Of a DNA stretch of 30,936 bases, positions 500-14,117 are shown piece by piece (the first letter of the stretch is position 1; every line of letters starts with the position of its first letter). The translations under genes and the position numbers were made by a program. Under the pieces are notes generated by a model, which saw only the letters and a list, made by a program, of their open reading frames with translations, ran no database searches and was not told the DNA's origin. The stretch spans positions 1-30,936 of the IMG/VR virus record IMGVR_UViG_3300025101_000107; one strand, given 5' to 3'. This stretch comes from a virus.

Positions 500-731
500 T
501 ACATTAAGAATAGGAGATGATGTTCTATGGAGAGGTAGCTTTGGTATGGAAGAACCTAGAAAGGTAATGGTAACAGGAATCCAGCTAAACTATTCTAACG
601 GAAGTAAAGAAGGTATTCCAGTAGAGGAGATTGATTGGTGGCATATACAAGAACGTAATCAAATCCTTGACTTAGATAATGGTCATTGGTGTTGGGCATT
701 TCAAATAGAACCAGTAGTAGAGTATGTTTAA
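492..731 (+). CDS. Small phage hypothetical protein (79 aa)
   Basis: ATG 492 is preceded by a strong Shine-Dalgarno AAGGAGG. The protein reads like a compact soluble domain: GDDVLWRGSFG at the N-terminus, then a Trp-rich C-terminal half (EEIDWWHI, NGHWCWAFQIEPV). It has no catalytic motif I recognise. Its stop codon TAA lies inside a GTTTAAAC palindrome (726-733), one of 15 in the window. It is the last gene before a 139-base gap holding a sigma70 promoter. Confidence 0.7.
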   Translation: MSDTLRIGDDVLWRGSFGMEEPRKVMVTGIQLNYSNGSKEGIPVEEIDWWHIQERNQILDLDNGHWCWAFQIEPVVEYV

Positions 732-757
732 ACAGACTCAATTAATTAACAAAGTGT

Positions 758-786
758 TTGACTTACCTTATAAAAAATGTTATAAT
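758..786 (+). promoter_or_regulatory. Sigma70-type promoter
   Basis: TTGACT at 758-763 and TATAAT at 781-786 are separated by exactly 17 bases, an 11/12 match to the consensus. It sits in the 139-base gene-free stretch 732-870, which is otherwise very AT-rich and holds no other feature that I can see. It should drive the small genes starting at 871. Host RNA polymerase holoenzyme would be the reader. Confidence 0.8.
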
Positions 787-870
787 CTTTTAAATTTTTT
801 AAGGTATCAAACAAATAATTATAATAATTAATAAATTAAATAATTAAAATATTTTAAAAAGGATATAAAT

Positions 871-1005
871 ATGAGTGATGATACAAAAAGAATTATAAAT
901 ATTGATGATGTTGTAGATGATTACTACAATAATGCACCGATAGTAGATACAAATGAGTATAGTGAGGATGTGTTAGGAGAGGAGGACTATGATGACAGAG
1001 CATGA
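871..1005 (+). CDS. Acidic micro-protein (44 aa)
   Basis: ATG 871 follows AAGGAT and is the first start downstream of the promoter at 758-786. The product is strongly acidic (INIDDVVDDYYN, SEDVLGEEDYDD) with no Cys and one Met, no membrane segment, and no recognisable domain. Its 3' end overlaps the next gene by 17 bases and supplies that gene's ribosome binding site (GGAGAGGAGG). Small acidic early phage proteins are sometimes host-protein inhibitors or DNA mimics, but nothing here shows that. Confidence 0.5.
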   Translation: MSDDTKRIINIDDVVDDYYNNAPIVDTNEYSEDVLGEEDYDDRA

Positions 1006-1261
1006 TGATAGGGTTAGTCAACAAAGGTTGCTACTTGAAGCAGAAGAGTGGGCAAAAGTTCCTAAAGCGGTACATATTCACAGCTTAAAATCTATGTGGT
1101 ATGATGATAGACCTTGGGATACTGAGGTTGGTAAGGTTATGGACATAGAATACAATAATGGATTGATTGTTAGAAAAAAATATGGAGAGACAATACATAC
1201 TTTTGGAGAAGAAAAGACAGGTCAAGAATTAATAGATTTATATTGCAGAGGTGGAGCATGA
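989..1261 (+). CDS. Phage hypothetical protein (90 aa)
   Basis: ATG 989 (or 992) lies just after GGAGAGGAGG, a very strong Shine-Dalgarno. The protein has an acidic helical N-terminus (SQQRLLLEAEEWAKVP) followed by beta-like segments around WYDDRPWDTEVGKVMDIEY. No motif is recognised and no membrane segment is present. The stop overlaps the next start (ATGA at 1258-1261), indicating translational coupling in a run of small genes. Confidence 0.6.
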   Translation: MMTEHDDRVSQQRLLLEAEEWAKVPKAVHIHSLKSMWYDDRPWDTEVGKVMDIEYNNGLIVRKKYGETIHTFGEEKTGQELIDLYCRGGA

Positions 1262-1392
1262 CACCACAATTTAATGGAAGAGATTTTATTTATTTGTTTT
1301 TTATGTTGGCTTGTTTTATCGTAGCTTTTAGTATTTGCGACAGAACGTTTAAACAAGATTGCTATATCATAGATACAAGGTATATGGTATGA
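1258..1392 (+). CDS. Single-pass membrane micro-protein (44 aa)
   Basis: An ORF of 45 codons linked by 4-base ATGA overlaps to both the upstream gene and the downstream gene. The product has one hydrophobic stretch (IYLFFMLACFIVAFSI, residues 11-26) and then a short polar end with two Cys. It probably spans the inner membrane. A GTTTAAAC palindrome (1347-1354) lies within it. The double coupling is the main evidence that it is real; no family is recognised. Confidence 0.55.
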   Translation: MTPQFNGRDFIYLFFMLACFIVAFSICDRTFKQDCYIIDTRYMV

Positions 1393-1688
1393 CACAAAAC
1401 TTTTCTAAAAAAGAATTAGAAAATTCTAAAAGAATATTTAAATCAGCAACACCTAAGTATGATTTATCTTGGTATGTTAAATGGTCAGCATCAGCCATCA
1501 TGTTAGTAGCAATGTCGTTTAGAGGTGCACAAGTTTTACCACAGTTTGATTTATTACTATCCTTTGTAGGATGTTTAGGTTGGTTGTGGGTAGGGGTTCT
1601 GTGGAAAGACAGAGCATTAATTATTTTAAATGCGGTAGCAGTAGTGATATTGTTTAGCGGTATTTTAAAACTATTCTTAGGAGGGTAG
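1389..1688 (+). CDS. Small integral membrane protein, 3 TM segments (99 aa)
   Basis: I chose ATG 1389, which overlaps the preceding stop (ATGA), over a start 30 bases earlier. After a basic N-terminal segment (SKKELENSKRIFKS) there are hydrophobic stretches at about residues 29-45, 53-70 and 75-96, with the conserved-looking loop LWKDRALIILNA. It resembles small membrane proteins I recall from marine myo- and podophages, whose function is unknown. It sits in the early small-gene run, away from the lysis genes, so a holin role is not favoured. Confidence 0.65.
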   Translation: MTQNFSKKELENSKRIFKSATPKYDLSWYVKWSASAIMLVAMSFRGAQVLPQFDLLLSFVGCLGWLWVGVLWKDRALIILNAVAVVILFSGILKLFLGG

Positions 1689-1689
1689 T

Positions 1690-1887
1690 ATGAGAGAAGA
1701 GATTATACAAGCACTAAAAAATAATTTAGAAGGCTTGATTGGTTGGCACATTATGAACGTAAACATAATGCTAGACAAAGCGGTAGGAGTTCCAGAACAT
1801 CCAGACTTATTGAAGACTATTGAAGAAGAGCTACAAGCTATATCAGATTACAACGATAAGCTAGAAGTTTTAAATAAATATTTTTAA
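1690..1887 (+). CDS. Small conserved phage protein (65 aa)
   Basis: ATG 1690 lies two bases after the previous stop and behind GGAGGG. The sequence pattern MREEIIQALKNN ... HPDLLKTIEEELQ ... KLEVLNKYF is one I remember from small proteins widespread in T4-like cyanophages and other marine phages. It is predicted to be all-helical and soluble. The function is not known to me. The family assignment is from memory and unverified. Confidence 0.7.
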   Translation: MREEIIQALKNNLEGLIGWHIMNVNIMLDKAVGVPEHPDLLKTIEEELQAISDYNDKLEVLNKYF

Positions 1888-1894
1888 ATAACGC

Positions 1895-1923
1895 TGGACT
1901 TTACAAAGGAGATATGTTATAAT
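1895..1923 (+). promoter_or_regulatory. Possible sigma70 promoter overlapping a start codon
   Basis: TGGACT (1895-1900) and TATAAT (1918-1923) are 17 bases apart. The -35 is weak (4/6) and the -10 perfect. The -10 overlaps ATG 1922, so a transcript from here would begin near 1930, close to a second in-frame ATG at 1931. If active it could give a leaderless message. A Shine-Dalgarno AAAGGAG before 1922 supports ordinary read-through translation as well. Confidence 0.4.
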
Positions 1924-2131
1924 GCCTGACATGATTGACAACAAGACAAGGACATTAACGAGGGATGAGTATAGAAACTTTCAAAACTTCATCAGCTCAC
2001 AGCCAAATCAGTTTGGTTATATGGTTGAGCACATTGATGATTTTTTTAAGATTTCTTTTCTTAAAGATGTTAGTTTTTGTTGGGATGAATTTTTTAAATA
2101 CAATGATGAGAATGTTCGTGGCGTATCATAG
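1922..2131 (+). CDS. Small hypothetical protein (69 aa)
   Basis: ATG 1922 follows AAAGGAG with about 10 bases spacing; an alternative ATG is at 1931. The product has a charged N-terminus (DNKTRTLTRDEYRNF) and an aromatic-rich second half (DDFFKISFLKDVSFCWDEFFKY). No domain is recognised. It overlaps the next gene by 29 bases in another frame. Real coding is likely but not certain. Confidence 0.5.
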   Translation: MPDMIDNKTRTLTRDEYRNFQNFISSQPNQFGYMVEHIDDFFKISFLKDVSFCWDEFFKYNDENVRGVS

Positions 2132-2429
2132 GAATAGCCCTCATAAATTTCCTTTTAAACCTATGGTATTCGATTCAGTCGTGCAAGTTTCTGGTCTTGT
2201 GCCCTTAAAACCAGCTCCTTTTGAAACGTTTAAACGTGGTGCTAGAGCCACCGTAAAATCCTTTCCCCTTATCAATCAGGTTTGTGAAAGGTTGTGGATG
2301 AAGCAGGATAAGAACTACACCAAGTACTGCCACCCGTTTAAACAATCTCAAATTAATTTCAAAAAACTATTGAACTCAAAGCCAAAGTATGATATAATGG
2401 CAACACTTAATACAACCTACGGAGGATAA
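2103..2429 (+). CDS. Basic hypothetical protein (108 aa)
   Basis: The frame is open from further upstream, but ATG 2103 (or 2112) minimises overlap with the preceding gene. The product is basic and rich in Phe, Lys and Pro (RNSPHKFPFKPM, PFETFKRGARATVKSF, NYTKYCHPFKQSQINFKK), with no membrane segment, which could suit nucleic-acid binding. Two GTTTAAAC palindromes lie inside it (2228-2235, 2336-2343), only 108 bases apart. Its last codons also encode the promoter at 2370-2398. Base composition is slightly more GC-rich than its neighbours. Function unknown. Confidence 0.5.
   Translation: MMRMFVAYHRNSPHKFPFKPMVFDSVVQVSGLVPLKPAPFETFKRGARATVKSFPLINQVCERLWMKQDKNYTKYCHPFKQSQINFKKLLNSKPKYDIMATLNTTYGG
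2370..2398 (+). promoter_or_regulatory. Sigma70 promoter with extended -10, ahead of the SSB gene
   Basis: TTGAAC (2370-2375), 17 bases, TATAAT (2393-2398), preceded by TG at 2390-2391, which makes a perfect extended -10 (TGATATAAT). The start of the ssDNA-binding protein gene is at 2434, so the leader would be about 30 bases, with the Shine-Dalgarno GGAGG at 2421-2425. It would launch the replication module. Confidence 0.75.
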
Positions 2430-2433
2430 AACT

Positions 2434-2853
2434 ATGGAGTATGAGTATTTAGATGGAAAGAGTATGTATGCTAATGTCAGCACACCTAACAGGAGATTTG
2501 AACCACATAAGTATCAAATCGTTGTGCTTACAGATGAGGATACTGCTAATAGACTAGAGGGTCTAGGTTTAAAACAAGTGAGAACCAGAGATGGTCAACT
2601 CAAGTATGATGAACCTGCATTCTCTTTTAGTAGACATGCCAACAGAAAAGATGGTACGCCTAACGCTGCACCTAAGTTATTAGATGGAGAAGGTAATCCG
2701 CTTGATGTTGCTGTTGGAAATGGCTCAACTGTAAGGGTTAAGATAAAGCCTTATACAGGAAATTACGGGACGTTTGCAGAACTTATGGCTGTAAAAGTTC
2801 TTAACTTAGTAGAATATGATTCAGAGGGAGACTCTGATAACGAGGAATTTTAA
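2434..2853 (+). CDS. Probable single-stranded DNA-binding protein, T7 gp2.5-like
   Basis: Placed immediately upstream of the primase-helicase and polymerase genes. The 139-residue protein ends in an acidic tail closing with phenylalanine (DSEGDSDNEEF). In T7 gp2.5 an acidic tail with a terminal Phe contacts the polymerase and helicase and is essential, so this tail is the key evidence. The body is beta-rich (YQIVVLTDEDTANRLEGLG, STVRVKIKPYTG, MAVKVLNLVEY), as expected for an OB fold. It is much shorter than T7 gp2.5 (232 aa). It would coat unwound DNA at the phage fork. The assignment rests on tail and position, not on a close sequence match. Confidence 0.75.
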   Translation: MEYEYLDGKSMYANVSTPNRRFEPHKYQIVVLTDEDTANRLEGLGLKQVRTRDGQLKYDEPAFSFSRHANRKDGTPNAAPKLLDGEGNPLDVAVGNGSTVRVKIKPYTGNYGTFAELMAVKVLNLVEYDSEGDSDNEEF

Positions 2854-2855
2854 TT

Positions 2856-3122
2856 ATGATTATCAATATTAAAAATGATGACGGGGAAATTCAATACGAT
2901 GTTAATAAAATAGCAGATGAGGATAAGAAACGTGGAGCAACTGTAACTATCTCAAAGGTAGGAAGTTTAGAAACTATTATAGAGGCTTTACAGTTTGCTA
3001 GTTCTACTCATAGAAGTAATCTGGAGAATCTTTTAAAAGAAACTCCTGAAGCTATGGTAGAAAATGATGAGCCTGTTGAGGATGCAGAAACTATAGAAGA
3101 AGAATCAACAGATAACGTTTAA
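2856..3122 (+). CDS. Acidic hypothetical protein in replication module (88 aa)
   Basis: Two bases separate it from the SSB stop. It has a short beta-like N-terminus (MIINIKNDDGEIQYDV), a helical middle (SLETIIEALQFASSTHRSNLENLL) and an extended acidic C-terminus (ENDEPVEDAETIEEESTDNV). The stop codon lies within a GTTTAAAC palindrome (3117-3124), directly before the Shine-Dalgarno of the helicase gene. The position suggests a replication accessory role, but no family is recognised. Confidence 0.6.
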   Translation: MIINIKNDDGEIQYDVNKIADEDKKRGATVTISKVGSLETIIEALQFASSTHRSNLENLLKETPEAMVENDEPVEDAETIEEESTDNV

Positions 3123-3139
3123 ACAGTCGGAGGGCTAAC

Positions 3140-4801
3140 ATGGAAAAAACTTGGGATAAAGTTCATCAACCTTGTCCGCTTTGTGATAGTAGTGATGCTG
3201 TCGGAATCAACGAAGATGGTTCAGCAAAGTGTTTCAGTTGCGGGGAGTTTATGCCTGACTATAATAAATCATGTGAGGGAAAAGATATGGAATTTCAAAC
3301 TGAAACTAAAAAACCTGACGTAGTAGATGAGGGAATATTTGCAGCTTTGTCTGACAGAAAAATCTCTCAGCCTACTGCTACTAAGTATGGAGTAAAGGTA
3401 GCACATGACCATCAAGGTAATGTCATCAAACACTTTTACCCTTACTACAACGGACATGAACTAGCAGGTACTAAGTGTCGGCACGTGAAGACTAAAGACT
3501 TCTTCGTAGCTGGTACTTATAATGAAACAGGATTGTTCGGACAACAACTCTTCAAGAGTGGCAAGTATGTCACGATAACGGAAGGGGAGTGTGATGCTAT
3601 GGCAGCTTACGAATTGCTAGGAAGTAAATGGGCTGTAGTATCCATCAAACGTGGTGCTCAAGGAGCTGTACGTGATGTTAAAGAAAGCCTAGAGTTCTTT
3701 GATGAATTTGAAAATGTAATCATTGCATTTGATAATGACAAGGCAGGGAAGGAAGCAGCAGTAAAGGTAGCGAGGCTGTTTAAACCTAGTAAGGCTAAGA
3801 TAGTTACACTCCCCAATGGGTACAAAGACCCTAACGATATGCTTAAAAATAACAAGCATAAAGAGTTTGTTGAATCATGGTGGGCAGCTAAAGTCTATAC
3901 CCCATCTGGTGTTATCAATGTCTCAGAGCAGCGAGATAAGTTCCACAACAGAGAGAAGAAGCAAAGTGTTCCTTATCCTTACAAAGGATTGAATAAGAAA
4001 CTATATGGACTCAGACAAGGAGAACTTGTAACTCTTACAGGTGGTACAGGACTAGGTAAGTCAAGTGTTACTAGAGAACTAGAGCATTGGCTTATCAAAG
4101 AGACAAAGGATAACGTTGGTATCATAGCACTTGAAGAGGACTGGAGAAGAACTATCGATGGTATCTTATCTATCGAAGCTAACGCCAGACTTTACATTGA
4201 CCAAGAACGAGAGAAGTTTTCTGTTGAAGAATTAGATAAGATGTTTGACATCTTGTATGATGGGGACAACAAGAACAGAGTATGGGTACATTCTCATTTT
4301 GGAACTAACGACATCGATGACATCTTTACCAAACTAAGATTTATGATTATCGGATGTGATTGTAAGTGGGTAGTGGTAGACCATTTACATATGTTAGTTA
4401 GTGCGGTGCATGAAGGAGATGAGAGACGTGCCATTGATTCTATTATGACAAGACTTAGAAGCTTAGTAGAAGAAACAGGTGCTGGTATTATTTTAGTTTC
4501 CCACTTACGTAGAGTAGATGGTAACAAAGGACATGAGAATGGTATTGAGGTATCACTCTCTCATCTTAGAGGTTCAAATAGTATTGGACAATTAAGTGAT
4601 TGTGTGATAGCATTGGAACGTAATCAACAGTCAGACGATGCAGAAGAAGCGAGAACAACAAGGATGCGTATATTAAAATCAAGATACACAGGAGATGTTG
4701 GAATGGCTTGTAGTGTTATGTATGATAATGATACAGGAAGATTGACTGAAGTTAGTAATGATGATATAATGTTTGATGATGATTCAGACGAAGCATTTTA
4801 A
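3140..4801 (+). CDS. Primase-helicase, T7 gp4-like
   Basis: A 553-residue bifunctional replication protein, close to the length of T7 gp4 (566). A zinc-binding domain has C12-x2-C15 and C31-x2-C34. A Toprim primase core carries the EGECDA motif (E148) and the acidic FDNDKAG motif (D198, D200). The C-terminal DnaB/RecA-type helicase has Walker A GGTGLGKSS (301-309), an LEEDW motif, VVDHLHM as Walker B region, and SHLRR before a region rich in Ser/His. It would unwind duplex DNA and synthesise primers at the fork with the SSB and polymerase next door. ATG 3140 follows GGAGGG. The acidic C-terminus ending DDDSDEAF resembles the polymerase-contacting tail of T7 gp4. Confidence 0.96.
   Translation: MEKTWDKVHQPCPLCDSSDAVGINEDGSAKCFSCGEFMPDYNKSCEGKDMEFQTETKKPDVVDEGIFAALSDRKISQPTATKYGVKVAHDHQGNVIKHFYPYYNGHELAGTKCRHVKTKDFFVAGTYNETGLFGQQLFKSGKYVTITEGECDAMAAYELLGSKWAVVSIKRGAQGAVRDVKESLEFFDEFENVIIAFDNDKAGKEAAVKVARLFKPSKAKIVTLPNGYKDPNDMLKNNKHKEFVESWWAAKVYTPSGVINVSEQRDKFHNREKKQSVPYPYKGLNKKLYGLRQGELVTLTGGTGLGKSSVTRELEHWLIKETKDNVGIIALEEDWRRTIDGILSIEANARLYIDQEREKFSVEELDKMFDILYDGDNKNRVWVHSHFGTNDIDDIFTKLRFMIIGCDCKWVVVDHLHMLVSAVHEGDERRAIDSIMTRLRSLVEETGAGIILVSHLRRVDGNKGHENGIEVSLSHLRGSNSIGQLSDCVIALERNQQSDDAEEARTTRMRILKSRYTGDVGMACSVMYDNDTGRLTEVSNDDIMFDDDSDEAF
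4742..4770 (+). promoter_or_regulatory. Sigma70 promoter ahead of DNA polymerase
   Basis: TTGACT (4742-4747), 17 bases, TATAAT (4765-4770), with TG at 4762-4763 making an extended -10. This is 11/12 of the consensus. It lies inside the last codons of the helicase gene, 34 bases upstream of the polymerase ATG, so polymerase and downstream genes could be transcribed separately by host RNA polymerase. Confidence 0.75.
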
Positions 4802-4803
4802 TT

Positions 4804-6534
4804 ATGGATTTAGTATTTGACATAGAGACAGATGATTTAAACGCCACGAAGGTGTGGTGTATTGTAGCTCAAGACCCTTTAACTGGTCAGATATTTAAGT
4901 TTACACCAGATGAATTACAAAAAGGTTATGAGTTCTTAGCTACTGCTGATACTTTAATTGGTCATAACATTATTGGATTTGATATACCTATGATACATAA
5001 GTTTAGTGATGTAGATTTATCAAAGATACCTGTAATAGATACGCTAGTTTTATCCAGACTATTCAACCCAACTAGAGAGGGTGGACATAGCTTAGAAAAT
5101 TGGGGATACAAATTAGGATTCAACAAGATTGACTTCAATGATTATTTAAATTACTCTCAAGAAATGCTAGACTATTGTGTAAGAGATGTACAACTTAATA
5201 CTCAAGTCTTCAAAGAACTAAGAAAAGAAAGTAAAGGATTCTCAAAAGATTCCATCGAGTTAGAACAAGGTGTAGCTCGTATCATAAAGCAGCAAGAGAC
5301 AAATGGATTTAAGTTTGACATCTTACACGCTGAACTTTTGTTAGCAGAGTTAAGAGAAAAGAAACAAGCCATTGAGGATGAGGTACAGAAGACGTTTAAA
5401 CCTAAGTGGGTAGATAGTAAGTTAGTTACTCCATACATTAAAAAGGATGGACAACTTTCTAAACGTGGACTCACGGATGAAGAATATACAAACTGTTTAA
5501 ACACTTCCAACTATAATCCATTCATGCGTAAGACTTTACAAGAGTTTAATCTTGGTAGTCGTAAACAGATTGGAGAATACCTAATTGATTTTGGGTGGAA
5601 GCCAGATAGATTTACACCAACAGGTCAGCCTATTGTAGATGAGAAAACATTATCAAAGATAACGCACATACATGAAGCTAAATTGATTGCAGACTTTTTA
5701 TTACTACAGAAAAGAATTGCACAGATTGATTCATGGTTTGAAGCAGTCACAGATGATGGAAGAGTACATGGGTTTGTCATACCTAACGGTACGATAACAG
5801 GTCGTATGACTCATCGTAATCCTAACATGGCACAAGTACCAAGTGTATCTAGCCCTTTCGGTAAGGAATGCAGAGCATGTTGGACTGTAGAAGAAGGTAA
5901 TGTTTTACTAGGAGTAGATGCTAGTGGACTAGAAATAAGAATGTTAGCACACTATATGGCTGACGAGGAGTTTATAAATGAAATCATTAACGGAGACATT
6001 CACACCGCCAATCAAAGACTTGCACAGCTTGAATCTAGAGATAAGGCAAAAACATTCATCTATGCACTCATGTACGGAGCAGGAGATGAAAAGCTTGGAA
6101 GTGTGGTTGGAGGAAGTAAGGCAGATGGTCGAAGAGCTAGACAACATTTCTTCGATAATAAGCCTTCATTTAAATCTCTTAGAGATAGAGTACAAAGAGC
6201 ATCTACAAAAACTTACCTCAAAGGAATAGATGGTAGAAAGTTATATGTTAGAAATCAACACTCGGCATTGAATACATTATTACAGGGAGCAGGTTCTATT
6301 GTTATGAAGAAAGCTCTTGTTGATTTAGATTTAATGTTACGTTTAAACACTATTGATTATAAGTTTGTTGCTAACATACATGATGAATGGCAAATAGAAG
6401 TTAAAGAAAGTCAAGCAGAATTTACAGGCTCTCTTGCTGTTGATAGTATTATCAAAGCTGGAGAAAGTTTTAACCTTCGCTGTCCTTTAGATGGCGAATA
6501 TAAAATAGGAGGGAATTGGAGTGAAACCCATTAA
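4804..6534 (+). CDS. Family A DNA polymerase, T7 gp5-like
   Basis: The replicative phage polymerase with proofreading. The exonuclease domain has DIE (D6, E8), the second motif around GHNIIGFD (53-60) and the third YCVRDVQ (124-130). In the polymerase domain, motif A is VDASGLEIR (D372), motif B is R412-x3-K416-x7-YG with Tyr420 at the sugar-selectivity position, as in T7 polymerase, and motif C is HDE (526-528). At 576 residues it is well short of T7 gp5 (704), so it may lack the thioredoxin-binding insertion. It begins two bases after the helicase stop and has no clear Shine-Dalgarno, so translation may be coupled. Three GTTTAAAC palindromes lie inside it. Confidence 0.96.
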   Translation: MDLVFDIETDDLNATKVWCIVAQDPLTGQIFKFTPDELQKGYEFLATADTLIGHNIIGFDIPMIHKFSDVDLSKIPVIDTLVLSRLFNPTREGGHSLENWGYKLGFNKIDFNDYLNYSQEMLDYCVRDVQLNTQVFKELRKESKGFSKDSIELEQGVARIIKQQETNGFKFDILHAELLLAELREKKQAIEDEVQKTFKPKWVDSKLVTPYIKKDGQLSKRGLTDEEYTNCLNTSNYNPFMRKTLQEFNLGSRKQIGEYLIDFGWKPDRFTPTGQPIVDEKTLSKITHIHEAKLIADFLLLQKRIAQIDSWFEAVTDDGRVHGFVIPNGTITGRMTHRNPNMAQVPSVSSPFGKECRACWTVEEGNVLLGVDASGLEIRMLAHYMADEEFINEIINGDIHTANQRLAQLESRDKAKTFIYALMYGAGDEKLGSVVGGSKADGRRARQHFFDNKPSFKSLRDRVQRASTKTYLKGIDGRKLYVRNQHSALNTLLQGAGSIVMKKALVDLDLMLRLNTIDYKFVANIHDEWQIEVKESQAEFTGSLAVDSIIKAGESFNLRCPLDGEYKIGGNWSETH

Positions 6535-6943: not shown

Positions 6944-7748
6944 AAAAACTATTGACAGTTCTTCTCAGGAAGTATATAATAAACTAGCAGCTTCTAAATA
7001 TAAATCGGAAGCTGGTCATTGGTACTCCAAAGATGGAGAACCTATGTACACAATCATAGGTGCTAATGGTAAAGAAAGAAATACCAATCTACGAGATGCT
7101 AGGTCTCTAGGATTAGTACCTTCAGTCACTACGATTCTAGGTATGGTAGCTAAACCATCCTTAGAAAACTGGAAAATAAATCAAGCCTTAAACTCTGCAC
7201 TTACTTTAGAAAAGCAAGATGACGAATCCTTAGAGGGGTTTGCTTTCAGATGTAAACAACATTCTAAAGAGATAGGTTTAAACGCAGCGAAGAAAGGTAC
7301 AGAGATTCATGCTAAGATTGAACAAGGTTTCTTAGGGCTAGGTACGTCTAAGCCTTACGAAATAATTCAATCATGGTTGGATGAAAACTTTCCAGATGAA
7401 GAGTGGATAGCAGAAGATTCCTTCTGTGCAAAACAAGGATATGGTGGTAAGATAGACTTATATTCTAAGTCAGGTATCTTCGTTGACTTTAAAACTAAAG
7501 ACAACTTAGATGGTAAAGAACCTGCTAAATTAGTTTATGATGACCACGGTATGCAACTATCTGCGTATGCTCAAGGATGCAATATAGATAATCCAGAGAG
7601 GGTTTCTATCTTTGTAGATAGAGAGGATACAAGCTTAGTCTTATGTCATATATGGGATAAAGAATCCCACGAGAAACATAGAGATATGTTCAACAGTATA
7701 TTAAAGTATTGGCAACTGGTAAAGAATTATGAATGGCAAGAAAGCTAA
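6927..7748 (+). CDS. PD-(D/E)XK exonuclease, RecB/Cas4-type
   Basis: A 273-residue protein with a RecB-type nuclease core: GTEIHAKIE (H128), GGKIDLY (D177), VDFKTKD (D187-x-K189), and the QLSAY helix motif starting at Q210. In this superfamily His, Asp, Asp/Glu and Lys hold the metal, and the Q-x3-Y motif positions DNA. By position it fills the role of T7 gp6 exonuclease in recombination and host DNA degradation, although it belongs to a different family. ATG 6927 has AAGGAG upstream and overlaps the previous gene by 17 bases. A perfect sigma70 promoter starts 25 bases into the gene. Confidence 0.85.
   Translation: MTKKNKKTIDSSSQEVYNKLAASKYKSEAGHWYSKDGEPMYTIIGANGKERNTNLRDARSLGLVPSVTTILGMVAKPSLENWKINQALNSALTLEKQDDESLEGFAFRCKQHSKEIGLNAAKKGTEIHAKIEQGFLGLGTSKPYEIIQSWLDENFPDEEWIAEDSFCAKQGYGGKIDLYSKSGIFVDFKTKDNLDGKEPAKLVYDDHGMQLSAYAQGCNIDNPERVSIFVDREDTSLVLCHIWDKESHEKHRDMFNSILKYWQLVKNYEWQES
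6952..6980 (+). promoter_or_regulatory. Perfect consensus sigma70 promoter inside the exonuclease gene
   Basis: TTGACA (6952-6957), 17 bases, TATAAT (6975-6980): 12/12. It begins 25 bases after the exonuclease ATG, so a transcript would begin near 6987 and miss that start. It would serve the downstream genes (small protein at 7729, endonuclease I, DUF3310) or a shorter exonuclease from Met40. The match makes chance unlikely, but activity is not shown. Confidence 0.7.
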
Positions 7749-8395: not shown

Positions 8396-8673
8396 AGAAA
8401 AGAGATTACAAATTTACAGAGGATAAAATTTTAGAAACAATTAAATCTCATATTGATTCAACATATACTGAACATTATGCTAGAGGTAAATATCAAGCGA
8501 CAGATATGATACTTGATGCTGGACACGGTGAAGGTTTCTGTATTGGTAACATTATGAAATACGCTATGAGGTATGGAAAGAAGAATGGTAAGAATCCAAA
8601 TGACTTGCTAAAGATTATTCACTATGCTATAATAGCCTTATATTTAACAGGAAAACAAGATGATGGAAGATAA
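8392..8673 (+). CDS. DUF3310 family protein
   Basis: I prefer ATG 8392, which overlaps the endonuclease stop (ATGA) and is well spaced from GAGG; ATG 8386 in the same frame adds two residues. The sequence has HYARGKYQATDMILDAG, then GNIMKYAMRYGKKNG and DLLKIIHYAIIALYL. This is the DUF3310 pattern (often labelled nucleotide kinase-like without proof), which is common next to phage nucleotide metabolism genes. The biochemical role is unsettled. It overlaps nrdA by 14 bases, consistent with a deoxynucleotide supply module. Confidence 0.8.
   Translation: MKKRDYKFTEDKILETIKSHIDSTYTEHYARGKYQATDMILDAGHGEGFCIGNIMKYAMRYGKKNGKNPNDLLKIIHYAIIALYLTGKQDDGR
8605..8633 (+). promoter_or_regulatory. Sigma70 promoter with extended -10, ahead of nrdA
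   Basis: TTGCTA (8605-8610), 17 bases, TATAAT (8628-8633), preceded by TG at 8625-8626. The weak -35 (4/6) is offset by a perfect extended -10. It sits in the end of the DUF3310 gene, 27 bases before the nrdA ATG, and would provide separate expression of the ribonucleotide reductase genes. Confidence 0.65.
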
Positions 8674-10555
8674 GATAGGCAAGAAACCTTACCTCGGTAT
8701 ATGTATAGATTATGATAAAGAAAAAAAGTTTGATAAGTTTAGTTTAGATACACTCAAAGACAGATACTTTTGGGATAATGAAACCCATGCTCAAGAAGCT
8801 TTTGCTAGAGCTTCAGTATTTGCAGCAACATATAAAGGAGAAACAGATTATGAATTGGCTCAGAGACTTTATAACTACAGCTCCGATTGTTGGTTTATGT
8901 TCAGTACTCCTATACTTAGCAACGGAGGCACAACTCGTGGGCTTCCTATCAGTTGCTTCCTTAATTATGTTCCTGACAGCAGGGTTGGTTTATCTGCTCA
9001 TTACGATGAGAACATTTGGTTGGCGAGTTCGGGTGGAGGCATCGGTGGATATTGGGGAGATGTGCGTAGTAATGGTATTTCTACTACTCACGGTTCTCGT
9101 TCTACTGGGTCAATCCCCTTTATGCATGTCGTAGATTCACAGATGTTAGCCTTTAATCAAGGCACTACAAGACGTGGAAGTTATGCAGCATACATGGACA
9201 TTAGCCATCCAGAGATTGAAGAGTTTATAAATATTAGAAGAGAGTCAGGTGGTGATATTAATAGGAAGTGTTTAAACCTTCACAATGGAATAAACATTAC
9301 CAATGCATTCTTAGAAGCTGTAGAGAACGATGAAGACTGGAGACTGATAGACCCTAAGACTAACGAAGCTGTTAAGACGGTCAATGCTAGAGACTTATGG
9401 TGGCAAATACTTTTTGCTAGAGCTGAAACAGGTGAGCCATACATGATTAACATTGATACGTGTAACGAAGCTTTACCAAAATCACAGAAAGATTTAGGAC
9501 TAAACATAAGGCAAAGTAATTTATGTTCAGAGATTACCTTACCTACTAACGAAGAACGTACAGCAGTTTGTTGTTTATCTTCTGTCAACTTAGAACACTT
9601 TGATAAGTGGTCAAAGAATGATGAGTTCATTAATGATTTAATTACAATGCTCGATAACGTCTTACAACATTATATTGATAATGCTGTAGACACATCACAA
9701 CTCGGAGAATATAGTGCAAACTTCAAACGTTTTTCAAAATATATTAAAGAAGATAAGGAAGGTTATACCAAGTCAGCTTACTCAGCGTATAGGGAAAGGT
9801 CTCTTGGTCTTGGGGCAATGGGCTTCCACGCTTATCTTCAATCTAAAGGAATACCTTTTGAAGGTATATTCGCAACTGGCTTTAATCATAAAGCCTTTAG
9901 TCACATCAAAAGAGAAGCGACAAAAGCTTCTCAATACTTGGCAGAAGAAAGGGGTGAAGCTCCTGATATACATGGTTCAGGGCTTAGAAATGCTAATCTA
10001 CTTGCTATTGCTCCTAACGCTTCTTCCGGTATTATTTGTAGTGGGACTTCCCCTAGTATTGAGCCTTATAGGGCTAATGCATATACGCACAAAACTTTGT
10101 CAGGTACTTACCAAGTTAAGAACAAATACTTAGATAAACTTTTAAAGTCTAAAGGATTGAAAGGTAAAGAACTTGAAGAAGTTTGGAAAGATATATCAGG
10201 TAATGATGGTTCAGTTCAACAGCTAGAGATACTAGATGAGAAAGAAAAAGAACTATTCAAAACCGCAAATGAAATAAATCAAATATGGATTGTCGAACAT
10301 GCACATATGAGACAAGAATTTATTTGTCAAAGTCAAAGTGTAAATTTATTTTTTACACTACCTAAGACTACGGATAGCCAAGAAGTACATGATGAATATA
10401 TGCAGTATGTAAATGATGTTCATTGGTATGGAATGCATAAACTTAAATCGCTATATTACTTTAGGTCTAATGCAGCTAGAAACGTAGAGAATGTTAACAT
10501 AAAAATTCCTCGTATTAAATTAGATGATGAGGGATGTATTGCCTGTGAAGGTTAA
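8660..10555 (+). CDS. nrdA: Class I ribonucleoside-diphosphate reductase, large subunit
   Basis: Reduces ribonucleotides to deoxyribonucleotides for phage DNA synthesis, with NrdB. Active-site residues are present: C99 in PISCFLNY, the NLCSEI motif (N287, C289, E291), C304/C305 in VCCLSSVNL, the radical-transfer Tyr pair in KSLYYFRSN, and a C-terminal redox pair CIACEG. At 631 residues it is about 130 shorter than E. coli NrdA, and the shortening is N-terminal: the ATP-cone is missing. Loss of that domain removes dATP feedback inhibition in the enzymes where it has been studied. ATG 8660 follows AGGAAAA; 8663 is an alternative. Confidence 0.96.
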   Translation: MMEDKIGKKPYLGICIDYDKEKKFDKFSLDTLKDRYFWDNETHAQEAFARASVFAATYKGETDYELAQRLYNYSSDCWFMFSTPILSNGGTTRGLPISCFLNYVPDSRVGLSAHYDENIWLASSGGGIGGYWGDVRSNGISTTHGSRSTGSIPFMHVVDSQMLAFNQGTTRRGSYAAYMDISHPEIEEFINIRRESGGDINRKCLNLHNGINITNAFLEAVENDEDWRLIDPKTNEAVKTVNARDLWWQILFARAETGEPYMINIDTCNEALPKSQKDLGLNIRQSNLCSEITLPTNEERTAVCCLSSVNLEHFDKWSKNDEFINDLITMLDNVLQHYIDNAVDTSQLGEYSANFKRFSKYIKEDKEGYTKSAYSAYRERSLGLGAMGFHAYLQSKGIPFEGIFATGFNHKAFSHIKREATKASQYLAEERGEAPDIHGSGLRNANLLAIAPNASSGIICSGTSPSIEPYRANAYTHKTLSGTYQVKNKYLDKLLKSKGLKGKELEEVWKDISGNDGSVQQLEILDEKEKELFKTANEINQIWIVEHAHMRQEFICQSQSVNLFFTLPKTTDSQEVHDEYMQYVNDVHWYGMHKLKSLYYFRSNAARNVENVNIKIPRIKLDDEGCIACEG

Positions 10556-10564
10556 GGAGAACTA

Positions 10565-11548
10565 ATGAGCTTACTATCAACAAGAGATTACTATAAACCG
10601 TTTGAGTATCCGTGGATGTACGATTACTACAAACTACAAAATCAAATGCATTGGATGCCAGAATCTGTACCATTACATACAGATGTAAAAGATTGGCAGG
10701 ACATTTCACCAACAGAAAAAAATCTATTGACTCAAATCTTTAGATTATTTACTCAGTCAGATGTCGATGTAGCGAGTGGATATATAGATAAATATATGCC
10801 CATCTTTAAAAAACCAGAAGCAAGAATGATGATGAGTTCTTTTGCTAACATGGAATCAATCCATCAAGATGCCTACAGTTTATTACTTGACACAGTTGGA
10901 ATGCCTGAGTTAGAATATAAAGCATTCTCAGAGTATGAAGAGATGGCAGACAAGCATGACTATGTGGGAACGTTTAAACCACGTAAGAATGATAAGAGAA
11001 CTATTGCAAAAACATTAGCAGTTTATTCTGCATTTACAGAAGGACTACAATTATTTAGTAGCTTTGCAATCTTGTTAAACTTTCCAAGATTCGGAAAGAT
11101 GAAAGGTATGGGACAGATTGTAACTTACTCTATTCGTGATGAGTCAATGCATGTTGAAGCCATGACTAAATTATTTAGAGAGTTCATACAAGAGAACATT
11201 GACATATGGACAGATGATTTTAAAAAAGAGTTGTATGAAATATGTAGAGAGATGGTAACGCTGGAAGATAAGTTTCTTGATTTAGTATTTGAGATGGGAG
11301 ACTTACAAGGATTGACCAAGAAAGATATGTATGCATATAATAGATACATAGCTGATAGAAGATTACTACAGCTAGGATTAAAAACTAATTATGACCAAAG
11401 AGAAAATCCTCTTGGTTGGATAGATGAAGTGATGGGTGTTGAGCATCAGAACTTCTTTGAAGGTAGAGCTACTACTTACATGAAGGCTGGACTCAGAGGA
11501 AAACAAGACTTAATTAACTTTGCAAATTTAAGGACAGTAAATGAGTAA
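10565..11548 (+). CDS. nrdB: Class I ribonucleoside-diphosphate reductase, small subunit
   Basis: A 327-residue radical-generating subunit. The di-iron ligands and tyrosyl radical site can be placed: D66, E97 and H100 with Tyr104 in MESIHQDAY, E159 in FTEGLQLF, and E193/H196 in RDESMHVEAM. The spacing D66-E97-Y104 equals that of D84-E115-Y122 in E. coli, so this looks like a Tyr-radical class Ia/Ib type rather than a Phe-substituted class Ic type. ATG 10565 has AAGGAG upstream and lies 9 bases after nrdA. A GTTTAAAC palindrome lies at 10972-10979. Confidence 0.96.
   Translation: MSLLSTRDYYKPFEYPWMYDYYKLQNQMHWMPESVPLHTDVKDWQDISPTEKNLLTQIFRLFTQSDVDVASGYIDKYMPIFKKPEARMMMSSFANMESIHQDAYSLLLDTVGMPELEYKAFSEYEEMADKHDYVGTFKPRKNDKRTIAKTLAVYSAFTEGLQLFSSFAILLNFPRFGKMKGMGQIVTYSIRDESMHVEAMTKLFREFIQENIDIWTDDFKKELYEICREMVTLEDKFLDLVFEMGDLQGLTKKDMYAYNRYIADRRLLQLGLKTNYDQRENPLGWIDEVMGVEHQNFFEGRATTYMKAGLRGKQDLINFANLRTVNE
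11312..11341 (+). promoter_or_regulatory. Possible sigma70 promoter inside nrdB
   Basis: TTGACC (11312-11317), 18 bases, TATAAT (11336-11341), 11/12 matches but one base longer spacing than optimal. It is about 200 bases upstream of the last + strand gene and would transcribe that gene and the convergent non-coding region. Confidence 0.45.
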
Positions 11549-11756
11549 GAAGCAGGAAGCTAATCTTATTAGTTTCAAACTATTATTAACAAAAGATAAC
11601 AAGATAGTAACAGAAATATCAGAGTTGCCAGTAGAAAAAGTAGATGAATGTTTTCCAGAATACGACAGAGTTCTAGTCAAAACTTTACTTCGTAGAGCAA
11701 AAGAAAGACTCGAACCACTTCATCGATATTTAGAACGTGAAACTGAGGCTTTGTGA
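11541..11756 (+). CDS. Hypothetical protein after nrdB (71 aa)
   Basis: ATG 11541 overlaps the nrdB stop by 8 bases, implying coupling. The protein has a beta-like N-terminal half (LISFKLLLTKDNKIVTEI) and a helical, charged C-terminal half (DRVLVKTLLRRAKERLEPLHRYLERE). It has one Cys and no CxxC, so it is not a glutaredoxin or thioredoxin, the usual RNR partner. It is the last gene of the + strand arm. Function unknown. Confidence 0.6.
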   Translation: MSKKQEANLISFKLLLTKDNKIVTEISELPVEKVDECFPEYDRVLVKTLLRRAKERLEPLHRYLERETEAL

Positions 11757-11877
11757 AAAAACGACCTCACAGAATGCCCGTAGTTGAACGATTAGGGTGT
11801 AAGTAATACCATTGGTCCAAAAACACCTAAAATGCAGCCACGGGCTTCTATGAAGCTCTCAGAGCATTTAGCTATTT
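11757..11877. other. Convergent intergenic region with nested inverted repeats (terminator or structured RNA candidate)
   Basis: Between the two convergent arms there is no ORF but dense inverted repetition. AGAATGCCCGT (11771-11781) pairs with ACGGGCTTCT (11840-11849) with one bulge. Inside it TTAGGGTGT (11792-11800) pairs with ACACCTAA (11823-11830), and inside that ACC/GGT (11808-11816). A competing local hairpin is GGGCTTC (11842-11848), loop TAT, GAAGCTC (11852-11858), using the same bases as the outer stem. TAGCTA-TTTT-TAGCTA (11869-11884) follows, running into the hsp20 stop. No clean hairpin plus U-run terminator is evident. The likely role is transcription end or 3' protection for both arms. 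Confidence 0.5.
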
Positions 11878-12291
11878 TTAGCTAGAAACTTTGATTTTTT
11901 TTGGCTTTTGTTCCTCTGGTATGTCTTTTTCCAGTTGAATAACCAAGACACCATCAATCATCTGAGCTTTCTTTACTTCTACGTATTCAGCTAGAGCAAA
12001 TTTTTTATAGAACTCTCGTTCAGAAATTCCTTTATGAATAAATTCTATATCATCCTCTCTCTTTCCGTAGTCTGCAGAGATAGTTAATGTATTATCTTTT
12101 ACTTCAATATCAATGTCAGAACGTTTAAACCCTGCCATTGCCATTTCAATAAAATATGATTCACCTTTTTTAAGAATATTGTAAGGTGGATAGTTTGTAT
12201 TAGGTATTGATGCTCTTTGTAATGTATTAAAGATGTCATCAAACCCGACTGAGAACGGACTGAATTGTCCAAATGCTTTTATGTTTGTCAT
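11878..12291 (-). CDS. Small heat-shock protein, Hsp20/alpha-crystallin family
   Basis: A 137-residue chaperone of IbpA type. The alpha-crystallin domain runs from about residue 35 (PPYNILKKGESYFIEMAMAG) to 125, with the typical DIDIEVKDNTLTISA, the loop RGISEREF-like HKGISEREFYKKFAL, and DGVLVIQLEKDIPEE. It would hold unfolding proteins in the infected cytoplasm. Small Hsp20 genes are well known in marine cyanophages. It is the last gene of the - strand arm and has its own perfect promoter and a thermometer-like leader, separate from the overlapping genes upstream. ATG 12291 is set by AAGGAG at 12297-12302 on the - strand. Confidence 0.93.
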   Translation of the reverse strand: MTNIKAFGQFSPFSVGFDDIFNTLQRASIPNTNYPPYNILKKGESYFIEMAMAGFKRSDIDIEVKDNTLTISADYGKREDDIEFIHKGISEREFYKKFALAEYVEVKKAQMIDGVLVIQLEKDIPEEQKPKKIKVSS

Positions 12292-12343
12292 ATTAACTCC
12301 TTATATAAAGCAAGTTTATGAGTGCCGAACCTTTCGCACACTC
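12292..12343 (-). promoter_or_regulatory. Candidate ROSE-like RNA thermometer in the hsp20 5' leader
   Basis: The expected leader of about 55 bases forms two hairpins. The 3' hairpin (12295-12316) pairs AACUUGCUU with AAGGAGUU around a UAUAU loop: A-U, A-U, C-G, U-A, U-G, a bulged G, then C-G, U-A, U-A. It buries the Shine-Dalgarno AAGGAG. The anti-SD strand contains UUGCU, which matches the U(U/C)GCU signature of ROSE elements that control bacterial small heat-shock genes, including the bulged G. The 5' hairpin (12320-12343) pairs GAGUG with CACUC and CGAA with UUCG. The gene controlled is itself an Hsp20. The fold is drawn by hand; melting is inferred. Confidence 0.7.
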
Positions 12344-12352
12344 TTCCCTACT

Positions 12353-12381
12353 ATTATAGGGTCGATATTCACATTTGTCAA
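12353..12381 (-). promoter_or_regulatory. Perfect consensus sigma70 promoter for hsp20
   Basis: On the - strand TTGACA (12376-12381), 17 bases, TATAAT (12353-12358), 12/12. The -35 starts one base after the stop codon of the cyclase gene (12383-12385). The start of transcription should be near 12346, giving the two-hairpin leader. There is no sigma32-like heat-shock promoter pattern, so any heat control would act through the leader. Confidence 0.85.
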
Positions 12382-12382
12382 G

Positions 12383-14116
12383 TCATATTGTATAAATTTT
12401 TATAGGTTTTTCTTTACCTTTAACACGGATAGAATCTAACTTTTGATACATAGTTCCATGATAATATTTAATTGTCTCTTCACCTATAACTAAATCTTTA
12501 CCTACTTCCTTACAGCTAGATTCTAAACGAGCTGCTAAGTTTACCGCATCACCTATAGCTGTATAATCAAAACGAGTATCACTTCCCATATTACCTATGA
12601 CAGCTTCACCCGTATTTACACCAATACCTATATCAATATCTAAATCTGATTCTTTCATTTTAGTTTTTATTTCTAACGCTGCTAATATAGCTTGATGTTC
12701 GTGTCTATCTAAATCCATAGGTGCATTAAATATAGCCATCATCGCATCACCAATATATTTATCTACCATTCCACCATACTTTTTAACTGCATCAGCTTGG
12801 ATAGTTAAAGCTTTGTTCATAATCTCTGTGACTTCTTCAGGCTCTAACTTCTCTGACAAACTTGTAAAGCCTCTAACATCTGTAAATAAAAATGTACATC
12901 GTCTTCTTTCACCACCTAACTTTAAAAGCTCTGGATTGTTTTGTAATCGTTTGACTTGAGCTGGGTCAAGATAATGCTCAAATTGTTTCTTAATTTGTTG
13001 ACGAAGTTTAAACTGTGTCCTAAAGTTTAGATAGAACTGTTGAGTTGCGATAAGTGTCATACTTATCAAACTCCAAGTTACATCAACTAAATAACCTAGA
13101 GATACAAAATAATAACCTAAACCAGCAACTGATGACATTACCATACCAGCTAAAAGTAATCCCCACGTTATACCAAAGTAACTTATAATAAAGGCGATTA
13201 GTAATCCGGAAATGCATAATATAAATAGTTCAACAAATAATCTGTAGTCAGGTATGGAAGGAGAGTCAATCAAAATACTTTCTGCAAGTGCAGCCTGTAT
13301 CTTATGAGGCTCTAACAATCCGTTTGGAGTTGCTAACTGTGGCATAACTCCTTTCGCAGTTACACCTATGAATACAAACTTACCTGCAACATCCATTTCT
13401 TTTAAGGTAGTTTGTGGTGTATCAACCCAACTAATCCATTTTCTCCCAAGACTATCTGTGCTTACCGGAGGTAATCCTTTGACTCTTATCATCTCAATAC
13501 CATTCTCGTTAGTCTTAATTTGATAAGTGTCACCACCTACTAATGACTTTAGTACTTGAGTACCAAAGGCAGCAACCCAACCATCTGGAGTTTGCTGTAG
13601 TAAAGGTAATCGTCTGACAAGATTATCTACATCAACTCTTGCCGACACTACTCCTTGAGCTGCTGATTGTTTTAGTATAGGTACATTTTCTAAAAACCCT
13701 GTAGCTTTTGGTAAGTCTACATCTGGTCCAAGGATAACAGTACCATGTGTTTCAGGATAAATATTATTCTCAAACTCTGGCATTGCTAGTACACTAGGAA
13801 CATAACTTAGCATCTGTGAAAAGATTTCATCTCCACCAAACCTATCTGGCTGTGGAAATAGAATAACCCAACCCACTCCTAATGCACCTTCGTTAATTAG
13901 TTGTCGTTGTATCTCTGCTAAGTCTTGTCTAGGAAAAGGATAGCCACCTCTTTCTTGTACGTCTTCTTCAGTAATATTTAAAATTGTAAAATGTCCGGAA
14001 GGCTCTGGAGTTTCTACAAACGTATCAAAAGTTTTAAGTCTAAGTATCTCTAAAGGTACAGAGTTAAAAAGTAAAGGTACAATTAAAAGTCCAAGTAAAG
14101 GTAAAGACCACTTCAT
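12383..14116 (-). CDS. CHASE2-domain class III adenylate cyclase
   Basis: A 577-residue membrane receptor-cyclase predicted to make cAMP from ATP. An N-terminal hydrophobic segment (residues 5-20) leads into a periplasmic CHASE2 domain (about 25-285) with VEITEED-like NITEEDVQERGGYPFPR and FVFIGVTAKG. Three membrane segments follow (about 293-312, 316-338, 343-358), then a coiled linker and the cyclase domain (about 400-577). Catalytic residues are complete: metal ligands D413 (FTDVRGF) and D457 (YIGDAMM), adenine-selecting K453 and T519 (DYTAIGD), and N526/R530 (VNLAAR). ATG 14116 follows AAGGAG overlapping the end of the FecR gene. In bacteria CHASE2 cyclases can lie beside FecR-domain genes, as here. 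It is full length with no broken motif. Confidence 0.93.
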   Translation of the reverse strand: MKWSLPLLGLLIVPLLFNSVPLEILRLKTFDTFVETPEPSGHFTILNITEEDVQERGGYPFPRQDLAEIQRQLINEGALGVGWVILFPQPDRFGGDEIFSQMLSYVPSVLAMPEFENNIYPETHGTVILGPDVDLPKATGFLENVPILKQSAAQGVVSARVDVDNLVRRLPLLQQTPDGWVAAFGTQVLKSLVGGDTYQIKTNENGIEMIRVKGLPPVSTDSLGRKWISWVDTPQTTLKEMDVAGKFVFIGVTAKGVMPQLATPNGLLEPHKIQAALAESILIDSPSIPDYRLFVELFILCISGLLIAFIISYFGITWGLLLAGMVMSSVAGLGYYFVSLGYLVDVTWSLISMTLIATQQFYLNFRTQFKLRQQIKKQFEHYLDPAQVKRLQNNPELLKLGGERRRCTFLFTDVRGFTSLSEKLEPEEVTEIMNKALTIQADAVKKYGGMVDKYIGDAMMAIFNAPMDLDRHEHQAILAALEIKTKMKESDLDIDIGIGVNTGEAVIGNMGSDTRFDYTAIGDAVNLAARLESSCKEVGKDLVIGEETIKYYHGTMYQKLDSIRVKGKEKPIKIYTI

Positions 14117-14117
14117 A

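Follow-up and report, generated by a model that had tools for sequence, protein, structure and literature searches.

The question raised by this viral DNA is why one short word recurs throughout its left arm, and what reads it. The window, that is, the whole stretch of 30,936 nucleotides that was analysed, is a fragment of a marine phage genome, of which a full-length twin is 99.9% identical. An earlier note had claimed a more than tenfold excess of the palindrome GTTTAAAC, concentrated in the left arm, and this has been confirmed: the window holds 15 copies against about 1 expected, 14 of these lie within its first 13 kb, and 7 of the 15 share the extended form ACGTTTAAAC. The Markov correction leaves the excess in place, with 1.1 (order 1) or 1.8 (order 3) copies expected, and dinucleotide shuffles of the window contain 1.03 copies on average, with 0 of 100 shuffles attaining 15. 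In the Markov ranking, GTTTAAAC is the top word among all 8-mers and the top 8-bp palindrome of the window. Composition or chance as the source of the excess is ruled out by the shuffles and Markov models. The clustering is also seen in the complete genome of the twin, where the control and early/middle arm contains 27 of the 31 copies, the hsp20/cyclase junction 2 and the late genes (approximately 36 kb) just 2. One-mismatch neighbours show no excess (for example, the early region of the twin has 7 where 11.7 are expected), which rules out a degenerate operator with weak sites; GTTTAAAC is an exact word and a sharp 8-bp palindrome.

The copy at 726..733 encloses the TAA stop (729-731) of ORF 492-731, the one at 1347..1354 lies between or overlaps small early ORFs, with ORF 1359-1688 beginning shortly after, and those at 2228..2235 and 2336..2343 are located in the small early gene region. 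The copy at 3117..3124 encloses the stop codon of ORF 2856-3122, shortly 5' of the Shine-Dalgarno sequence (SD) and ATG (3140) of the primase-helicase gene, which itself contains a copy at 3778..3785. Three copies are found within DNA polymerase at offsets 590 (5394..5401), 691 (5495..5502) and 1537 (6341..6348), followed by single copies within the genes for an exonuclease (7276..7283, not conserved among relatives), ribonucleotide reductase alpha (9270..9277) and ribonucleotide reductase beta (10972..10979). Two minus-strand genes, hsp20 (12123..12130) and a putative CHASE2-type adenylate cyclase gene (13006..13013), also contain one copy each. The lone copy in the late, minus-strand arm (26849..26856) is close to the chance level there.

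The earlier note had made its proposal depend on an excess in close relatives, and this holds for the nearest ones (93% DNA polymerase identity, 4-27 copies) but not for many relatives at 80-83%. Where a whole genome of such an array-less relative is at hand, the SprT-like partner protein described below is absent. HTVC115P has 1 copy of GTTTAAAC and HTVC103P has 0; together with the many array-less relatives at 80-83%, they rule out a motif typical of the whole phage group. When array-bearing relatives are compared, the in-gene sites are exact in 32 of 56 cases (background 22%), against 3 of 100 for array-less ones (background 18%). The primase-helicase site at 3778 is exact in 8/10 array-bearing relatives and in 0/17 array-less relatives, despite identical encoded amino acids. 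The DNA polymerase site at 5495 is present in all array-bearing relatives compared and in none of the array-less ones, and the ribonucleotide reductase alpha site at 9270 is exact in 6/6 array-bearing relatives. In-gene copies of GTTTAAAC are retained through synonymous codon choice, and only in array-carrying relatives. A relic of gene-block shuffling is ruled out because synonymous codons hold the in-gene copies, and a recombination-linked motif, which the earlier note had offered, is unlikely because the copies are kept in place in this way.

The only protein family found to be common to array-bearing contigs of unrelated phages is a SprT-like metallopeptidase, PHROG 6361, which is present in 16 of 19 array-bearing contigs and in 0 of 5 array-less relatives; the three array-bearing contigs without it are fragments, and an HMM search recovers it in one of them. 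Existing annotations of PHROG 6361 go no further than 'unknown function', 'SprT-like protease' or 'transcription elongation protein'. The sprT gene falls outside the window; the full-length twin has it about 2.9 kb further upstream. When 120 contigs were collected by start-context pattern and then checked for GTTTAAAC count and sprT, the 17 stretches in which GTTTAAAC occurs five or more times all carried sprT or were the cut-off twin of a sprT-bearing contig, and sprT was found in 0/103 with at most 4 copies. In addition, 80 loci were picked by the SprT-like protein alone, irrespective of the motif; 69 of them are enriched (p<1e-3) for GTTTAAAC or its variant GTGTAAAC, and 442 copies of GTTTAAAC are observed across these loci against 16 expected. 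Venkman contains 34 copies of GTTTAAAC, R26L 20 (0.02 expected), R5C 17 and Pan1 16; JackieB contains 41 copies of GTGTAAAC (0.05 expected), Powerpuff 27 and Zeta1847 22. The SprT-like protein is gp49 in Powerpuff, an Arthrobacter phage, and gp73 in JackieB, a Streptomyces phage; R5C infects Dinoroseobacter shibae. Arrays together with a homologue are also found on three alphaproteobacterial plasmids, such as the Magnetospira plasmid MGMAQ_p (16 copies against 0.35 expected). In all, homologues are present in 163 phage records and 70 plasmids. A single-protein search of bacterial genomes yielded three loci, two of which are enriched (Pseudarthrobacter, 8 GTGTAAAC; Catellatospora, 5 GTTTAAAC) and one is not.

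The site variant clusters on the SprT protein tree, with 11 changes against 31 when labels are shuffled. In four named phages (Dismas, Armstrong, FP1 and Epa5), the C-terminus of the SprT homologue has diverged, and the array is absent. Two loci (L265 and L285) count against this pattern, having an intact-looking C-terminus and no array in the fetched stretch, and a crude test of the QxTR C-terminus is borderline (enriched 61/68 against 8/12, Fisher p=0.055). As judged from these correlative sequence comparisons, the SprT-like protein and the site word very probably belong together. This supports the first option of the earlier note, a binding site for a phage protein, although the partner is no obvious replication or packaging protein. 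A host motif, also suggested there, is unlikely because the word tracks one phage gene across hosts as different as Pelagibacter relatives, cyanobacteria and actinobacteria.

The SprT-like protein has a length of about 200 amino acids; its N-terminal part is predicted to adopt a Spartan-type metallopeptidase fold, and its C-terminal part to form a zinc ribbon. Pfam SprT-like matches have values of 1.7e-6 (above the cut-off) and 1.2e-5 (at the cut-off) and are weak or absent in other homologues. The model fold matches human Spartan (6MDW) with a Z of 8.3 over 100 residues; with Foldseek alone, the top ranks were zinc-ribbon fragments only, and the Spartan match came from further fold comparison. 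The fold lists contained no sequence-specific DNA-binding domain among their matches. The HExxH motif is present in nearly all homologues and lost in two (G020 and L393).

A site is located at most 150 bp upstream of sprT at 27 of 75 loci, against 7.6 expected; most mid-GC loci have no site close to sprT, which counts against the reading preferred below. In actinophages, TTGCGC and TAGGAT-like boxes are separated by a 17-bp spacer, and the sites lie within it. About nine early genes of the full-length twin show the arrangement GGAG-GTTTAAAC-ATG, and 7 Venkman sites lie at most 9 bases before an ATG. The genic share of sites ranges from 12/34 in Venkman to 24/32 in another genome (G019), so the sites are start-associated only in part, and a promoter-only or translation-start-only element is ruled out, since many or most copies are genic. 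In R26L, Pan1, JackieB and Powerpuff, the sites are evenly spaced through the structural genes (gap CV 0.38-0.56), which exceeds what promoter control needs and counts against a repressor reading. Inside genes, the non-palindromic GTGTAAAC occurs 37 times in one orientation and 24 in the other (p=0.12), and its overall count in JackieB is 19 against 22. Since GTGTAAAC is used in both orientations, double-stranded DNA rather than RNA is indicated as the target.

On balance, the SprT-like protein probably binds double-stranded DNA in a sequence-specific manner, controls its own expression and blocks transcription of the phage from sites dispersed over its DNA. The support is correlative and comprises the protein-site pairing, the variants that track the protein tree, the nucleotide conservation within genes and the sites 5' of sprT; that the protein binds directly, that its zinc ribbon does the reading and that it represses are steps that we infer. 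The C-terminal zinc ribbon would read GTTTAAAC DNA, with GTTTACAC/GTTTAAAC DNA as the putative specific target, and the protein would bind its own promoter and tens of exact 8-bp sites in double-stranded DNA. Occupancy of promoters, SD/start junctions and coding sequence would repress sprT and the early genes, and the bound protein may halt the transcribing polymerase, like operators plus stoperators. The putative peptidase activity may turn the regulator off or remove a partner protein. A repressor role is uncertain where phages are thought to be lytic, which counts against this reading.

The main rival, which we regard as unlikely, is that the SprT-like protein forms a DNA-tethered protease shield that removes or blocks host defence or silencing proteins at regular sites; its peptidase or mere presence would act on DNA-bound or translocating proteins, in an anti-restriction role like that of plasmid ArdC. 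Whole-genome even spacing in R26L, Pan1, JackieB and Powerpuff is consistent with this, as are the tendency of the array toward the early arm in the window's phage and Venkman, the homologues with arrays on plasmids such as MGMAQ_p, and the ability of ArdC, with its Spartan-like domain, to overcome HsdRMS without needing protease activity (PMC7213743). However, coverage alone would not require sites at promoters, that of sprT among them, or at SD/ATG junctions, and an HExxH-less homologue retains 16+31 (47) sites, so proteolysis does not maintain the array there. The same homologue argues against a separate reader, in which another fast-diverging phage DNA-binding protein would recognise the sites and the SprT-like protease would merely process it. 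This improbable arrangement has a precedent in IrrE, a metalloprotease whose target is the DdrO repressor (cited in PMC7213743), and other DNA-binding genes are located near sprT in some phages, but the SprT-like family is the sole shared one found, and both the type and the presence of sites track the tree of SprT proteins and their C-terminal domain.

It is highly unlikely that the word works at the RNA level, whether in translation or as an RNase site between SD and start codon. The GGAG-GTTTAAAC-ATG genes of the twin and the Venkman sites shortly before an ATG would fit such a role, whereas GTGTAAAC occurs in both orientations inside genes and within promoter spacers, and most copies lie away from starts. 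The sharp palindrome might point to a target of modification or restriction, to a motif taken from the host or to composition, yet any of these is hardly to be expected given the shuffles and Markov models, the tracking of one phage gene across many hosts, and synonymous-codon conservation in array carriers only. No methyltransferase family common to the array-bearing genomes was found, at an annotation that is incomplete for single genomes.

Several known systems resemble parts of this one. In IrrE/DdrO and ImmA/ImmR, a metallopeptidase is likewise tied to a DNA-binding regulator; ImmA/IrrE peptidases process their repressors, the peptidase and the DNA-binding regulator being two distinct proteins. 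Spartan cleaves DNA-protein crosslinks, and we know of no sequence-specific target sites for it. Spartan/SPRTN (PDB 6MDW/6MDX) shares the SprT metallopeptidase fold and a zinc-binding subdomain with the phage protein. ArdC of plasmid R388 is also a DNA-binding protein of a mobile element, with a Spartan-like metalloprotease domain of dispensable activity (PMC7213743), but it has a non-specific N-terminal ssDNA-binding domain and no reported site array; such a domain is absent here, where the model places the SprT fold N-terminally and the zinc ribbon C-terminally. The Start-Associated Sequences of cluster K mycobacteriophages are repeats found directly 5' of the start codon in many small genes (PMC3203893); they are confined to starts, whereas SprT-linked sites are mostly elsewhere and have an identified partner protein. 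Closest in layout is the cluster A mycobacteriophage repressor (L5 gp71 type), with tens of short-site copies genome-wide in promoters and transcription units, site variants that track protein variants, and stoperators for which a block of initiation and elongation has been proposed (PMC9283540, PMC6550527). Many dispersed exact sites, including promoter sites, are present in the array phages as well. In contrast, the L5 sites are 13-bp, asymmetric and orientation-dependent. The phage SprT sites are 8 bp long, exact, and palindromic or nearly so; they occur in both orientations, often within genes, and their orientation is not tied to transcription. The L5 repressor is monomeric with two HTH-type DNA-binding domains; the partner here is not an HTH repressor of that family but a SprT-like protein with a zinc ribbon.

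Many unrelated phages and some plasmids share this pairing of protein and word, which is apparently undescribed so far; in the open-access literature, no relevant phage report on GTTTAAAC or GTGTAAAC was found. To our knowledge, this would be the first SprT-domain protein with sequence-specific double-stranded DNA targets. For PHROG 6361, there is now a precise DNA partner, recognisable in the bare sequence across plasmids and the phages of distant hosts, and, if the proposed mechanism is true, a system parallel to stoperators would exist on the basis of an unrelated protein. More tentatively, a new class of mobile-element regulators may be proposed, with a metalloprotease fold, a zinc-ribbon reader for an exact 8-bp word, autoregulation, a role as early silencer or immunity repressor at dozens of dispersed sites in phages and plasmids that are unrelated, and proteolysis as a switch; if true, it would supply the missing repressor of the temperate cluster AZ/EH actinophages. 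Powerpuff is temperate and forms immune lysogens, yet has been described as 'lacking identifiable repressors' (PMC8758107). The SprT-like protein is a concrete candidate for this missing repressor, and Powerpuff renders the idea testable.

The left part of the window carries T7-like replication genes (SSB, primase-helicase, family A polymerase, exonuclease and endonuclease) and both ribonucleotide reductase subunits, followed by hsp20 and a cyclase, and the late genes of this 30,936-b phage fragment from IMG/VR are on the minus strand. The closest isolates are the Pelagibacter phages HTVC115P, HTVC103P and HTVC104P (51-54%, DNA polymerase). The palindromic word GTTTAAAC occurs 15 times in the window, against about one expected. 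A more than tenfold enrichment concentrated in the left arm had been claimed in the earlier note; the excess holds under a third-order Markov model (1.8 expected; Markov-based expectations are used throughout), and the concentration is also seen in IMGVR_UViG_3300030380_000587 (52,962 b), a full-length twin that includes the whole window at 99.9% identity. This twin has 31 copies, 27 of which are found in the control region and early/middle arm, two at the hsp20/cyclase junction and two in the late genes (~36 kb). In its leftmost early cluster, the starts of small genes have the form AGGAGGTTTAAAC-ATG, and the word often includes the TAA stop of the upstream gene. Recognition of the word appears to be exact, since one-mismatch variants are not enriched (7 vs 11.7 expected).

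Other features were observed in the same DNA. Repeats of ACTTGCAAAGC(GTGG) occur together with inverted units of the CTGTACAAAATTTATACAG type in the twin's control region (L087:1440-3060), where early and late genes diverge; these units look like origin iterons or sites of another regulator. A putative CHASE2-type adenylate cyclase, akin to that of HTVC008M and Methylophilales phages, lies with adjoining genes at 12383-15852 of the window (minus strand); together they might form a phage-borne signalling module.

The array of dispersed copies is found in relatives at 93% polymerase identity and in several at about 80%, whereas most relatives at 80-83% are without it. Among relatives, polymerase sites occur at constant offsets (590, 691 and 1537). 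In the genes for primase, polymerase, exonuclease and the two reductase subunits, 32 of 56 comparisons with array-bearing relatives preserved the in-gene site 8-mers exactly (other 8-mers, 22%), against 3 of 100 with array-less relatives (other 8-mers, 18%); these counts are not p-values, as relatives are not independent. The 17 array-less relatives all use other codons for the same amino acids at position 3778 in the primase gene. This conservation in carriers and codon change in array-less relatives indicate that the word is selected as a nucleotide sequence within genes. Two array-less relatives (L051 and L052) have another dispersed word, AATACTAATA (8-9 copies vs ~0.1 expected), possibly the array of another factor.

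A search with the word's start-context pattern yielded unrelated contigs of 35-62% GC that are dense in GTTTAAAC. In an all-against-all comparison of proteins from 19 array-bearing and five array-less contigs, one family was shared by 16 of the former and none of the latter: a SprT-like metallopeptidase with a Cys-rich C-terminal domain (PHROG 6361, annotated as unknown function). By HMM search, SprT is present in 12 of 17 contig stretches with at least five copies and in none of 103 with four or fewer; four of the remaining five have it elsewhere in the contig, and the last is an incomplete 99.9% twin of a SprT carrier. SprT was not found in five array-less metagenomic relatives or in the 50 kb searched of each of HTVC115P and HTVC103P. 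It was also not found within the window, which stops short of the gene; in the twin, sprT is located at 1842-2444 (minus strand, as deposited), and ~2.9 kb separates it from the left end of the window.

Conversely, 80 loci, many of them fragments, were gathered via the SprT protein alone, without using the motif. They contain 442 copies of GTTTAAAC against 16 expected, and actinophage-like high-GC loci use the non-palindromic GTGTAAAC/GTTTACAC instead (e.g., 15 vs 0.06); 69 of 80 are enriched for one or other form (p<1e-3). Named phages include Venkman (34), R26L (20), R5C (17) and Pan1 (16) for GTTTAAAC, and JackieB (41), Powerpuff (27) and Zeta1847 (22) for GTGTAAAC. The excess is modest in Mica, Alexa, ep3, Persinger and MQ-4 (3-8 in 40 kb) and absent from Dismas, Armstrong, FP1 and Epa5, whose SprT C-termini are visibly diverged in the alignment. 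One exception, L302, has six copies of CTTTAAAG (0.02 expected) in place of GTTTAAAC; its SprT homologue has an altered C-terminus. The word also occurs on three plasmids that were checked: Magnetospira MGMAQ_p (16 copies), Sphingobium pPDL2 (5) and one of S. yanoikuyae (4). Taken together, these correlations show that the SprT-like protein and the word form a protein-site pair.

In the Sphingobium plasmids (L386:14736-16409; L387:4621-6264), sprT directly precedes a gene for an AAA family ATPase and a small RHH or hypothetical gene, beside rep, in what looks like a partition-type operon. Nanhaivirus R26L and Pan1 (63% GC) are also enriched for GAGTTATA and the gapped palindrome ATAA-N5-TTAT, perhaps promoters, and CGAGCTCG/GAGCTC is far commoner than expected in actinophages L327, L287 and Zeta1847 (81 vs 17 in the last).

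The type of site clusters strongly on the SprT tree (11 changes vs 31 shuffled), in which many deep branches are weak. A plain QxTR rule applied to the 80 loci gives only a borderline result (p=0.055), so the C-terminal claim is based on the alignment and tree. An AlphaFold2 model of the homologue from the close relative L022 (mean pLDDT 90.9) resembles human Spartan (6MDW) over residues 11-128 (Z 8.3 over 100 residues, rmsd 3.2), while a predicted zinc ribbon like those of rubredoxin and MCM (Z ~4) spans residues 160-201. Exclusivity, covariation and C-terminal divergence lead us to infer that the protein binds the site directly. The protease of ArdC is dispensable (PMC7213743), and contig G020 encodes a homologue without HExxH while carrying 16 GTTTAAAC and 31 GTGTAAAC sites, which suggests that DNA binding comes first, ahead of the peptidase. 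Several G020 sites lie inside and adjoining this gene. A more distant HExxH-less homologue (L393:1992-2513; 36% GC contig, four GTGTAAAC sites) is possibly a second protease-dead lineage.

Sites are over-used at stop codons, upstream regions and intergenes, and in most genomes the majority are genic. Of 75 loci, 27 have a site no more than 150 bp upstream of sprT, against 7.6 expected from density; that of the twin overlaps what looks by eye like a promoter before sprT (TTGTGTTTAAAC, 18 bp, TAAAAT). Zeta1847 and L287 have the site within the 17-bp spacer of TTGCGC/TATGAT-like promoters. Spacing is even in R26L, Pan1, JackieB and Powerpuff (gap CV 0.38, 0.51, 0.56 and 0.55; each p<=0.0025), and in other genomes sites are grouped in one arm, not evenly spaced. 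Genic copies of the non-palindromic variant lie in either orientation (37 vs 24, p=0.12), which argues for action in double-stranded DNA rather than RNA. From these positions, the protein may control its own gene and early genes, and by analogy with stoperators (PMC9283540, PMC6550527) it could block elongation at genic sites.

The pair differs from L5 stoperators in its symmetric site use and different protein, the domain order of ArdC is different from that of the SprT-like protein, and Start-Associated Sequences are at starts, whereas GTTTAAAC sites are not limited to these. To our knowledge, based on open-access papers, sequence-specific sites are not known for any SprT-domain protein. For this reason, and because each of the systems compared has a tested hallmark that the pair lacks, it appears to be new in kind relative to these three systems. 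Powerpuff forms immune lysogens with no identifiable repressor (PMC8758107), and its SprT-like gp49 (27 sites) is a candidate for this role. If the repressor reading is true, the pair would be a functional analogue of operator/stoperator systems.
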